Below, piece after piece: positions 17,296-21,581 of a stretch of 35,127 nt of DNA; position 1 is the stretch's first letter, and each line of letters begins with the position of its first letter. Source of the stretch: a bacterium (GTDB lineage Bacteria; Bacteroidota; Ignavibacteria; Kapaibacteriales; UBA2268); NCBI GenBank assembly GCA_030431515.1, contig JAUIIX010000034.1:1-35127 (forward strand). The letters run 5' to 3'. The notes under the pieces are model-generated. The model ran no database searches, was not told the origin of the DNA, and worked only from the letters and a program-made list of their open reading frames with translations. The translations under genes and the position numbers were made by a program.

Positions 17296-17832
17296 TTAAA
17301 TATTACTATAAAATCTAAAAACACTTGAGGAGATTTTTTTTTCTTTAATTAAATTAAAATCACAATCAATAAACTTAAATTCATCTGATTCAATAATTAG
17401 CAAAGAAATTTCATCTATTAATTCTAATTCTGAAATCAATTTGATCGTTTTTTCATATTCATCAGAATTGTATGGTGGGTCAATATAAATTATATCATAT
17501 TTCAATTCTAAATTTTTCAAAACACTTGAAGCATTTTGTTTAGATATCTTATAATTATCTACTTTTAAATCATTTAATATATTTTTAATATACTTTATAG
17601 AATTAATATTTTTATCATTGAAATGAACTAATTCTGCACCTCTTGAAAGGAATTCAATTCCAACACTACCAGACCCAGAGTATAAATCTAATACTTTTTT
17701 ACCTTCTATATCTATTATATTTTCAATTATATTGAAAATACTCTCTTTAGCCATATCAGTAGTAGGTCTAATTCCAGAAGGCAACTTATAATTGAATCTT
17801 CTTGATTTAAAATCTCCAGAGATTATTCTCAT
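17296..17832 (-). CDS. rsmD: 16S rRNA (guanine966-N2)-methyltransferase
   Basis: Methylates G966 of 16S rRNA in the small subunit. The 178-residue length is normal. Motifs in order are MRIISGDFKSRRF, GIRPTTDMAKESIFNII, SAM motif I VLDLYSGSGSVGIE (47-60), and the catalytic DPPY tetrad at 118-121 in YIDPPYNSDEY. Its ATG overlaps the stop of the preceding PilM-like gene by one base (TAATG), so it is translationally coupled and is the last gene of the run that begins at ric. coaD, a frequent neighbour elsewhere, is not present. Confidence 0.95.
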   Translation of the reverse strand: MRIISGDFKSRRFNYKLPSGIRPTTDMAKESIFNIIENIIDIEGKKVLDLYSGSGSVGIEFLSRGAELVHFNDKNINSIKYIKNILNDLKVDNYKISKQNASSVLKNLELKYDIIYIDPPYNSDEYEKTIKLISELELIDEISLLIIESDEFKFIDCDFNLIKEKKISSSVFRFYSNI

Positions 17833-18758
17833 TACATTAATCTTATTCTTTCATGATAGGCAGGTATAACAGCACCTATACAAGGAGGGAAAACATGCTG
17901 CATTATTTTGCAATAGTCTTTTTGTCTATCATCAACATTAGATTCAACCATTCTAAAAGCATTTAGTCTTCCTGATTCAATACCCAAAGATTCAGCCATT
18001 TCTAAAGCTTGTTTAGATAATCCCTTTGTTAGTCCTGTTCCAAAGAAATATACTCCGTCAATATGCTCAATAATATCTTCTTGTAAAGAAGTATATTGTT
18101 CCTTAATAATATCCCCAAGTTTTTCTTTATTAGAAAAAGATAAAAGATTATAATAAGCAGGACGTGAGTTTTTAATAATACTCAAATCTATAAATTGATC
18201 TTGTACTCCAAGTATCATTATATTTTTTTCAAATGATTCTGGGTAATTATATAAAAATGCAGTGTGAGCATTTAATTGAGAAACTTCAATATTAGTAACA
18301 GGTAAATAATCTTTAAAAATATCCTTACAAGTATCAATTATTTCTTTTTGCATAATTGATGCCAGCATCATAGAACTGCCTTTGATATTCTTTTCCATCG
18401 GGATAATATTAGATACAAATTCGTCAGTATTATATTGTGGATATGCCTGTTTAATCTCAAGGTTTACAAGTTTATTTAACTGTTCCTTAGTCATTCCTTT
18501 TTGACCAGGAAACTGTGAGACAAACACACTTTCCGCTGGAATAGTAACAGTTACTCTATTAATTTTATTTTGTACACTATCCATAAACTTATGCAATTCT
18601 TGAATTCCTGGATCGTTCTCAGGGTCAAAAACATTTTCTAAATCTATTAGATTTCGAGTGGCTTCTACATAATCAAGAGTTAACCCTTTCTTACTTGGAG
18701 AAAGAATTGCCATGTAAGTTCTATCTATGTTAAAAAATACCGATAGTGCTGATTTCAT
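17832..18758 (-). CDS. PilM-like actin-fold (ASKHA) protein
   Basis: A 308-residue soluble protein with the outline of PilM, the cytoplasmic actin-like component of type IV pilus and type II secretion platforms. It has an N-terminal beta stretch (ALSVFFNIDRTYMAIL) and VTVTIPAESVFVSQFPG, the position of the PilM 'P-x-x-x-V' strand. Next comes MTKEQLNKLVNLEIKQAYP, where PilM has its EAxxxIP helix, and then a second half with MILGVQDQFIDLSII and YFFGTGLTKGL. No pilN, pilO or pilQ is nearby, so a pilus role is not supported by context. It is the fourth gene in the ric run, 6 nt after the flavodoxin-fold gene and coupled to rsmD. Family assignment is by motif layout and is moderate. Confidence 0.6.
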   Translation of the reverse strand: MKSALSVFFNIDRTYMAILSPSKKGLTLDYVEATRNLIDLENVFDPENDPGIQELHKFMDSVQNKINRVTVTIPAESVFVSQFPGQKGMTKEQLNKLVNLEIKQAYPQYNTDEFVSNIIPMEKNIKGSSMMLASIMQKEIIDTCKDIFKDYLPVTNIEVSQLNAHTAFLYNYPESFEKNIMILGVQDQFIDLSIIKNSRPAYYNLLSFSNKEKLGDIIKEQYTSLQEDIIEHIDGVYFFGTGLTKGLSKQALEMAESLGIESGRLNAFRMVESNVDDRQKDYCKIMQHVFPPCIGAVIPAYHERIRLM

Positions 18759-18764
18759 AAGTTT

Positions 18765-19277
18765 TTAATTTTTTTCTAAAATTATTTTCACGAATTTATC
18801 AATTTTTGGTGAAAGTTCCGAAGAAAATTCTTCATTTCTTTTCCAAACATGTAAATGAGCTATAAAATTCATCCTCAAATATGCGGATGTTTCCTTAAAC
18901 GGAATGTCAAATGATAATGGCTCGACTTCAGATGCCGAACAAGATATTAGATAAATATTCTTATTATTTAACTTTCTTCCAAGGTCTTTTCTAATAGTAA
19001 TTAAATCAGTCAATCTATCAAAAAATGTTTTTAATTGAGCAGACATAGAATACCAATATACTGGAGTTGCAAATACAATTTGGTCATATTGCAACAACTT
19101 ATCTATAATTTCTATAAAGTCATCTTCCCGATTAGTGTCTTCATATTCATAATAATTTATAAGGTAATCTGATAAATTAATAAAATCAGCATTAGTTTTT
19201 CTTTTAACTAATTCAGCTATTTCTCTTGTGTTTCCATCATTTCTGGAACTACCCAGAATAATTAAAGTGCTTTTCAT
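18765..19277 (-). CDS. Flavodoxin-fold NAD(P)H-dependent FMN reductase family protein
   Basis: A 170-residue cytoplasmic protein. The N-terminal phosphate-binding loop LGSSRNDGNTREI (8-20) and the second FMN-contact segment FATPVYWYSMSAQLKTFFDR identify the FMN_red/flavodoxin-2 family. Such proteins reduce FMN, quinones or metals with NAD(P)H. The gene lies 35 nt after the 12-TM membrane protein and 6 nt before the PilM-like gene, in the same orientation. Position in the ric run suggests it may supply electrons for nitrosative-stress repair; this is inference. Confidence 0.85.
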   Translation of the reverse strand: MKSTLIILGSSRNDGNTREIAELVKRKTNADFINLSDYLINYYEYEDTNREDDFIEIIDKLLQYDQIVFATPVYWYSMSAQLKTFFDRLTDLITIRKDLGRKLNNKNIYLISCSASEVEPLSFDIPFKETSAYLRMNFIAHLHVWKRNEEFSSELSPKIDKFVKIILEKN

Positions 19278-19312
19278 ATAGTAATTATAGTCGAATATTA
19301 ACTATAATTATT

Positions 19313-20548
19313 TTAGATTTGTTTGTTATTTAACTGATTATTCCAAATACTTATTGATAGATTATATTTACTTTTTTCAAATAAGTTAATAATATTCAAA
19401 TTTAGAATTAATAAAAATAACAGTGCTGTTGATATAAAATTAGAATAATAAATTTCATATTGCTTGAAAATATTAAAATAACTCAATACCAATGATATTT
19501 CATTTAAAATAAAGGCAACAATGAATGCTAAAATAAAGTTTCTAAATATTACACTCCTAACAAAATAAACATCAATAAAATAAAGTAGCATCGGAGAAAT
19601 TATACCAAGAAAATTCAAATGTAAGAAAACAATAATCATATTTCTGTTTGAGCTAACACTATCAGGTATAAAAGGAGAGAATAATTGGGCTAATAGTTTT
19701 ATAATAAATAAAAATAGAACTAATTGAATAATAAATTTACTCTGAGAATCTTGGAATCTAATTTTCAAAGAATTTTTGTTTTTTATATAAATATCAAGGA
19801 ATAAATAGATTTGTAATAAAGAAGATAACACAGCAAGCAAAGAAATTATCCAACTAATTTTAGCAAATAACAATGATATTGAATAAGTTAGAATGATACT
19901 GAGTAAAAATAAGTTAATTTGATTTTTACTAATTACTATGTCAATGTTTATATTCTTACAAAAGTTGAGCAGTAATCCTACTACTGCAAGTAAGAAAAAA
20001 CCATTATATTGAAAGTGCATATAAAAGTATATAGCACTATTGTAATAATTACTACCTTTTAAGCCATTAGCAGATAATGGCCCTAAAGCAAGAGTGCCGA
20101 TATAAGACAATCCCATCAGAATTAAAGCTAACTTTAAAATATAAGTTCCTACTAAGTTCTTATCAGAATATTTGAAAAATTTGACAGCAAATATTATCGT
20201 GAATAGAGAGTGAATAGATAAGAAAGTAATTGCCAATACTTTATATCCCCAAATCATTAAGCCAATTGAAATAAATAAAATGCTAATTTGGAAGATAATG
20301 AAAAGTAAATCAAAACTTAATATCTTACTTTTTTTGAAAATATTAGGATACTGGTGTGCAATAAGTAAAAAAATACAATTAAAAACCCACCCTAAAAATG
20401 CTAAGTGCGAGTGGGTTTGTAATATATGTTGATAATTCCATTCTAAATCACCATCAGCAAGTGGTATATATCTTAGTATCAAACTAAATATAGAAGTAAT
20501 TAAGAACAGAATTAAAGTAACATTAATATATTTCTTAATGTTATTCAT
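19313..20548 (-). CDS. Polytopic membrane protein with repeated HxxFLG-type motifs, linked to ric
   Basis: A 411-residue protein with about 12 hydrophobic segments and little else. Histidines sit in or next to membrane segments in a repeated context: H46-x-H48-L-A-F-L-G-W, M-H178-F-Q-Y-N-G and L-H310-L-N-F-L-G. H113 lies in another helix. Histidine pairs placed like this recall NnrS and the subunit I of haem-copper oxidases, where they bind haem or metal, but I cannot align the full set of oxidase ligands. It starts 5 nt after the end of ric, which makes a role in nitric oxide handling or respiration under nitrosative stress plausible. It could also be a sensor or transporter. Confidence 0.7.
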   Translation of the reverse strand: MNNIKKYINVTLILFLITSIFSLILRYIPLADGDLEWNYQHILQTHSHLAFLGWVFNCIFLLIAHQYPNIFKKSKILSFDLLFIIFQISILFISIGLMIWGYKVLAITFLSIHSLFTIIFAVKFFKYSDKNLVGTYILKLALILMGLSYIGTLALGPLSANGLKGSNYYNSAIYFYMHFQYNGFFLLAVVGLLLNFCKNINIDIVISKNQINLFLLSIILTYSISLLFAKISWIISLLAVLSSLLQIYLFLDIYIKNKNSLKIRFQDSQSKFIIQLVLFLFIIKLLAQLFSPFIPDSVSSNRNMIIVFLHLNFLGIISPMLLYFIDVYFVRSVIFRNFILAFIVAFILNEISLVLSYFNIFKQYEIYYSNFISTALLFLLILNLNIINLFEKSKYNLSISIWNNQLNNKQI

Positions 20549-20553
20549 CTAAT

Positions 20554-21270
20554 TTAATTTAAAAAAGTTACCTTTTTTTCAAGTTCTGCTGCTCTTGGAA
20601 ACAGAATATTATTTTCTTTATGTATATGCTCGTGTAAATCTTTCTGAAATTCTTGTAATTTTGAATACACAAATCTATATGTATTACATGCACTTTCAGG
20701 TGGATTAAAATCATTGCTCAATTCTTGTATAGTTTCAAATCTTTCACCTTCATTTGAGTGTTCTTCCATCATTCTTGCAATTGGGTTATTCACAGTTGCA
20801 AAATGTGGTTTTTCAATAGCTACATTATCTTTAACAGCTAAAGTCAACACATTAATAAAAGGAAAAAGAACACCTTCTTCTCTGGCCATGTGGCTCTTTA
20901 ATTCTTCAGCACTTTCGAAGAACAACTCTTTAATTGTCAATAACTCTGGATGTTCTACTCCATGTACTCTGGCTACTTTGTTTACTAAAGGAGTTAGCAA
21001 CTCAATAGACTCTGTTACATATTTGTGATGTTTATTAACAATATCTTCAATCAAATCGTAGTTAGAATATGATTTAAAATCATCACTAACTTTTTCTTTT
21101 AATATTGATTCTAATTCTGAAATCAATAAACTAGCATCAATATTTTTTTTAGCTGCAACGTCTGCTACTTTTATATTACCTTTACAGCAAAAATCAATTT
21201 TGTGTTTGTAAAACACTTCTGCACTTTTGATATTTTGTGCTACTACTTCGCCGACTGTCATTTCTAACAT
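20554..21270 (-). CDS. ric: Iron-sulfur cluster repair di-iron protein (Ric/ScdA/YtfE)
   Basis: Repairs iron-sulfur clusters damaged by nitric oxide or peroxide. It has an N-terminal DUF542 domain (VGEVVAQNIKSAEVFYKHKI then DFCCKG with Cys28-Cys29) and a C-terminal hemerythrin-like four-helix bundle. The likely di-iron ligands lie in NKHHKYV, ELKSHMAREEGVLFPF, MMEEHSNEGERF and LHEHIHKENNILFPR. Length is 238 residues from the first ATG, within the normal range. The sequence AAAGGA stands only 2 nt before that ATG but about 9 nt before a second ATG at 21261, so the shorter start (235 residues) may be the real one. It heads a five-gene run and has the best promoter in the window. Confidence 0.95.
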   Translation of the reverse strand: MLEMTVGEVVAQNIKSAEVFYKHKIDFCCKGNIKVADVAAKKNIDASLLISELESILKEKVSDDFKSYSNYDLIEDIVNKHHKYVTESIELLTPLVNKVARVHGVEHPELLTIKELFFESAEELKSHMAREEGVLFPFINVLTLAVKDNVAIEKPHFATVNNPIARMMEEHSNEGERFETIQELSNDFNPPESACNTYRFVYSKLQEFQKDLHEHIHKENNILFPRAAELEKKVTFLN

Positions 21271-21581
21271 TACATTTCCTTTCTATGAAAATAATAAAAG
21301 ATTAATTACTCTTAAATATTATTACAAAATTAAGTAAAACTTTAATACAAAGCAAATCTACGGTATATATTTTAAAATCAGCATTCTCTTTTAAGATACT
21401 TTTATCCTTTATTACCTTTTTACAATAAAATTTTCTTTAATTTTTTCCTTTTCAAATATTCATAATATTAAAGGATTTACAATAAACATATTCACACAAA
21501 AAATAAGAAATTCTCTATATTCATTTTTTTTTCTTAATTTTAAATGTTTTAAATATATTTTTAAAAATAAATGGAAAATTT
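21271..21581. other. Divergent intergenic region between ric and the aldolase gene
   Basis: 311 nt, strongly AT-rich. The left part holds the ric promoter. The right part, upstream of the aldolase, has T-rich runs and no element I can support as a promoter. I see no gene, RNA or repeat in it. Confidence 0.6.
21325..21356 (-). promoter_or_regulatory. Promoter of the ric operon (TTTG-N20-TAATTTTG)
   Basis: Read on the minus strand, TTTG (21356-21353) is followed after 20 nt by TAATTTTG (21332-21325). This is a full match to the Bacteroidota housekeeping promoter consensus in both boxes. The start of transcription would fall near 21318, about 50 nt before the start codon. Confidence 0.6.

Follow-up and report, generated by a model that had tools for sequence, protein, structure and literature searches.

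A conserved, unnamed membrane protein linked to ric in Bacteroidota denitrification clusters and predicted to adopt a haem-copper oxidase fold

What does a histidine-bearing membrane protein do when its gene directly follows that of an Fe-S cluster repair protein? The question is raised by a locus on a 35,127-nucleotide stretch of a Kapaibacteriales contig (JAUIIX010000034.1, positions 1-35,127), the whole of which is referred to here as the window. Five genes follow one another there on the minus strand. The first, ric (20554-21270), encodes a di-iron Fe-S cluster repair protein of the ScdA/YtfE/DnrN family, with ScdA_N and Hemerythrin domains and a TIGR03652 match above cut-off (E 5e-68). 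It is followed by the gene for a 411-aa polytopic membrane protein (MP, 19313-20548), for which AlphaFold2 models, structure searches, conservation and profile alignment point to a haem-copper oxidase (HCO) fold, and by those for an FMN_red/flavodoxin-fold NAD(P)H oxidoreductase (18765-19277; PF03358, E 8e-22), a PilM/DUF3822-like protein (17832-18758; PilM_2 and DUF3822 matches, both sub-threshold) and the 16S rRNA G966 methyltransferase RsmD (17296-17832; TIGR00095, E 4e-38). The last two genes (17296-18758) form a pair conserved across the order. From ric to rsmD the reading frames are separated by gaps of 5, 35 and 6 nt and then overlap by 1 nt, a single-strand layout in exact agreement with the original prediction. 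A Bacteroidetes-type promoter-like site (TTTG-N20-TAnnTTTG, a pattern match at 21356-21325 on the same strand) lies ~55 bp ahead of the ric ATG. It had been called the clearest promoter of the window, which is fair as a description, but the site is one among five equal matches across the window versus 3.8 expected by chance at 28% GC, and is not significant alone and suggestive only. A sigma-70 promoter scan of the window returned matches at chance level.

To judge which genes of the run belong together, we compared it with related genomes. The PilM-like gene is found in 26 of the 30 sampled genomes of the order and MP in just 4 of 60 relatives, the source genome being counted in both cases. 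In most relatives' loci examined rsmD adjoins the PilM-like gene, without an FMN reductase gene beside them, and the ric and FMN reductase genes of the window have no counterpart at the PilM-like/rsmD loci of related genomes. Since the PilM-like gene is near-universal in the order and MP is confined to so few relatives, the run consists of two units, an older PilM-rsmD housekeeping pair and, in front of it, ric-MP together with the FMN reductase. The FMN reductase is not among the recurrent neighbours of MP elsewhere; the conserved denitrification module is the ric-MP pair.

The distribution of this pair was assessed with a profile of eight MP homologues in 395 sampled Bacteroidota genomes, of which 79 encode MP. 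Homologues were also found in Verrucomicrobiota (Pelagicoccus) and on one Calditrichota contig, and none was found among viral contigs. Of the 79 MP genomes 73 also carry ric, a gene found in 177 of the 395 genomes as a whole (odds ratio 25; the Fisher p of 3e-23 overstates independence because the genomes are related), and six lack it; nosZ is present in 63 of the 79. Physical linkage is evidence separate from the co-occurrence p-values. For 71 of the MP genomes a ric gene was listed; in 23 of them the two genes lie at most 500 bp apart, always on the same strand and in 20 cases with ric preceding MP, and in 46 they lie at most 15 kb apart. The tendency of MP to neighbour ric, which the original prediction had proposed as a check, is thus borne out by both measures.

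The wider neighbourhoods place the pair among genes of nitrogen oxide reduction. Two operons recur, Rrf2-cupredoxin-norB-ric-MP beside SCO1 and nirK, and Rrf2-ric-MP-cytochrome c-nosZ-nosD-nosF-nosY, and across the loci MP has norB, nirK, nosZ, Rrf2, cytochrome c and truncated globin genes as neighbours; in Pelagicoccus, ric, nirK and norB all lie within 13 kb of it. In-frame fusions join MP to a lipoprotein-like cytochrome c domain in two related genomes (loci L098, 7055-8857, and L099, 7189-8970) and, in a single genome, to a truncated globin (L116, 6250-7878); at three further loci a truncated globin gene directly follows MP. Within the stretch seen, no denitrification gene lies near the MP copies of Bergeyella and of the Calditrichota contig.

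Two further features of these surroundings were recorded. On a Tunicatimonas plasmid (NZ_CP120684.1, 49683-68735), an island of Rrf2-ric-MP-cytochrome c-nosZ-nosDFY-Crp/Fnr lies between Tn3-type transposase genes, and this denitrification island may be mobile; its ric and MP genes overlap by 4 nt, and MP is annotated there as 'hypothetical protein'. In one Bacteroidota family (L070, L072, L073, L112, L113 and L116), paired 4-TM proteins of ~135-150 aa are encoded near MP; they resemble COX1 fragments (PF00115, E 1e-7 to 1e-8, just below cut-off) and carry an H-x-E...FGW motif.

Such surroundings bear on the idea that MP is a maturation factor, handling haem or copper in the assembly of NorB, cbb3/aa3 oxidase or NosZ. 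SCO1, CtaA, HemN, the NosDFY set and cupredoxin are indeed encoded near MP in many loci, but most of these neighbours are part of the surrounding nos/nor clusters anyway, and outside the nos set MP is most closely and most often linked to ric, whose product does not act in the maturation of these enzymes. Several MP genomes, moreover, are without nosZ. They include the source genome, which encodes a quinol-type NO reductase (qNOR, contig C159) and no nosZ above the family cut-off, so that MP is not dependent on N2O reduction. We consider a maturation role unlikely. In addition to the qNOR on C159, the same genome (G000) has two contig-end pieces, on C58 and C160, that jointly account for most of the COX1 profile; the piece on C58 resembles the cNOR subunit NorB.

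At the level of primary sequence MP has no Pfam, NCBIfam or PDB match, and its family is unnamed in the family libraries searched (Pfam, NCBIfam). The Pfam COX1 profile (PF00115) matched neither the window MP at E<=1 nor ten homologues at E<=0.5. A literature search, whose coverage took in few subscription journals, returned no paper identifiable as describing the family.

Predicted structures gave a much clearer signal. We modelled the window MP with AlphaFold2 from its own sequence and those of four homologues (pTM 0.66), and the Pelagicoccus homologue from the same five sequences (pTM 0.79), so the two models are not fully independent. The window model gave VIA Z 25.4 to the cbb3 subunit CcoN (3mk7_A) and 24.4 to cNOR (4xyd_A), and the Pelagicoccus model Z 33.9 to 4xyd_A with 395 of 406 residues aligned at rmsd 3.4, against a helical-bundle background with a best Z near 14. 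Foldseek matched the Pelagicoccus model to 3mk7_A at E 1e-6; for the window model its best match, at E 0.03, was again a cbb3 oxidase. The best 50 VIA matches of both models were solely HCO subunit I, and both predicted models show the 12-helix fold of that subunit, with Z 25-34 over ~360-400 residues. This predicted-fold match is the strongest evidence of the analysis, and the best explanation of it is that MP would be a divergent HCO-fold member, structurally nearest the NOR/cbb3 branch. That MP combines an HCO fold with a denitrification/NO context we regard as highly probable.

To place the histidines of MP within this fold, a profile of the close MP subfamily was aligned globally with a cbb3+NOR profile in cbb3- and NOR-anchored versions. 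The alignment reached P 3e-5, compared with P 1e-7 for cbb3 versus NOR in the same setting. In both anchorings H46 aligned to the helix II ligand of the low-spin haem, H178 to the helix VI ligand of CuB/FeB and H310 to the second His of the helix X H-x-H, so that H46 and H310 together supply the helix II and helix X residues expected to ligate a low-spin haem. H46, H48, H178 and H310 are all found where the original prediction had put them, and they are well conserved: all 82 homologues have H46, H48 and H310, as well as G101-Y102, and R26 and W54 each fail in a single sequence. Among 55 close homologues, 53 have H178, which is lost in a distant subfamily; most members of the latter have a His one turn earlier (Y174 in the window MP). 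The H44 position is His in 76 of 82 homologues and Gln in the window MP. Helix VI carries an 'H-FQY-NGW' stretch that matches the 'H-LWV-EGF' of NOR, and the distant subfamily has Glu at position 182 ('EGW'), matching the Glu-Gly of NOR helix VI.

Sequence-only support for homology between MP and HCO is modest. In a control, 2-3 of 200 random transmembrane orders reached the same global alignment score; when all 82 sequences were used, the NOR-anchored alignment slid to helix X, and some local alignments favoured MP helix II against HCO helix X. Because of these local pairings we considered a circular permutation in which MP helix II corresponds to HCO helix X, but doubled or cyclically shifted profiles scored no better than the sequential order, and the idea was rejected.

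The same comparison indicates what MP has lost. Position 308, equivalent to the first His of the oxidase H-x-H and thus to the high-spin haem ligand, is never His in the 82 homologues (F/Y in 79, otherwise L/W), and the helix VII His pair is not conserved among them, leaving the CuB/FeB ligand set incomplete. Since both are missing, MP lacks the canonical binuclear catalytic centre, and it keeps a predicted low-spin haem site.

Among enzymes of known structure, NorB (cNOR/qNOR; 4xyd, 3o0r, 6l3h) shares with MP the 12-helix core fold nearly throughout (Z 34), the helix II and helix X His ligands of the low-spin haem, the helix VI His with its (E/N)G motif and a gene neighbourhood of NO reduction. 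CcoN of cbb3 oxidase (3mk7, 8smr) likewise shares the fold (Z 33.6) and the His positions on helices II, VI and X, but MP has neither its CuB triad nor its high-spin haem ligand, and no CcoO/CcoP partner was seen. The likeness to NorB raises the question of whether MP could itself catalyse NO reduction at a remodelled active site, built from one His of helix VI (H178 or the one near it), one of helix II and a second haem or metal. The NOR-like predicted fold, the helix VI motif and the position of MP beside norB and ric would suit such an enzyme, and the fused or adjacent cytochrome c could donate electrons to it. However, unlike NorB, MP is without the helix VII His pair and the helix X ligand of the high-spin haem b3, the latter replaced by F/Y308, and the close subfamily is also without the helix VI Glu of NOR. 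MP further differs from NorB in an extra H-x-H on helix II, in its length of ~400 aa and in that no NorC subunit was seen alongside it, and an intact norB is often present in the same cluster. A reductase of this kind is therefore quite improbable.

The original prediction had likened MP both to oxidase haem sites and to NnrS. The first resemblance is upheld by the HCO fold predicted in two models; for the second no profile relationship emerged. In Proteobacteria NnrS, a membrane protein containing haem and copper, is regulated together with dnrN/ric (PMC1274295), and it reportedly shields iron from NO without removing NO (PMC9246220). MP resembles NnrS (PF05940) in its transmembrane count of about 12, in having His motifs, including an H-x-H followed by FG/LG, and in the association with ric/dnrN and nir/nor genes that is described for NnrS and its NO response (PMC1274295). 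Against the idea that MP is itself a divergent NnrS, there is no Pfam NnrS match, hhalign of the main MP family against eight NnrS proteins gave local P of 0.2-0.7, the NnrS invariants WHAH...GF and RxxxGHTG are missing from MP, which has different invariant motifs, and the NnrS profile does not match HCO either. Membership in that family is very improbable. An unrelated transporter with His motifs by chance, which the want of any sequence family match might suggest, is extremely improbable in view of Z values of 25-34 to HCO in two models, three His invariant in 82 of 82 sequences and a global alignment onto the HCO ligands.

NosB, another uncharacterised polytopic membrane protein of nos clusters, was also considered. 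It is encoded between nosZ and nosD in clade II clusters and carries LNHYIGM and YGHN motifs (PMC9697520); MP sits beside ric or at the end of the same clusters, and these motifs are absent from the window MP sequence and from the conserved motifs of its family. The missing motifs and the separate cluster position rule out that MP is NosB.

Taken together, these results suggest that MP is a non-oxidase HCO-fold haem b protein in NO handling, a statement to which, as a whole, we assign a probability of roughly 0.6. The suggestion that MP is an unrecognised NO or haem/copper protein working with Ric is accordingly supported at the level of these models, its homologues having kept the histidines and tending to lie near ric. 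The predicted bis-histidine haem b site would consist of H46 on helix II and H310 on helix X, with further His at H48 (helix II) and H178 (helix VI), and MP would act in the NO branch of denitrification. As the gene linkage implies, it would be co-expressed with Ric and NO reductase under NO. Its membrane haem b might then take up electrons or NO, and electrons might pass between MP and its neighbours or fusion partners, the periplasmic cytochrome c and the cytoplasmic truncated globin. NO would be intercepted by MP at the membrane, or haem and iron centres shielded, while Ric would mend cytoplasmic Fe-S clusters. A more specific arrangement, in which the low-spin site contains one bis-His haem and helices II (H48, H44) and VI (H178) hold between them a further haem or metal that binds or turns over NO, would make MP a functional class new to the HCO fold, but is doubtful; to our knowledge, the cavity between these helices is empty in known HCOs.

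For its function, the best reading is that MP is NnrS-like by role and not NnrS by sequence, and a protective role of the NnrS type is plausible, if somewhat short of an even chance. Among 148 Bacteroidota genomes a single one had an NnrS above cut-off, and MP is common in this phylum; since NnrS is almost missing from Bacteroidota, MP may fill its place there.

Among N2O reducers and partial denitrifiers Bacteroidota are abundant, and MP is a conserved, unnamed protein of their nor, nir and nos clusters. If the proposed reading is true, MP would have the HCO fold without the active site of an oxidase, and would be a candidate for the protection against NO that NnrS provides in Proteobacteria. 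MP is experimentally tractable, and it offers a concrete target for understanding how Bacteroidota handle NO toxicity and to what extent the oxidase fold lends itself to new uses.
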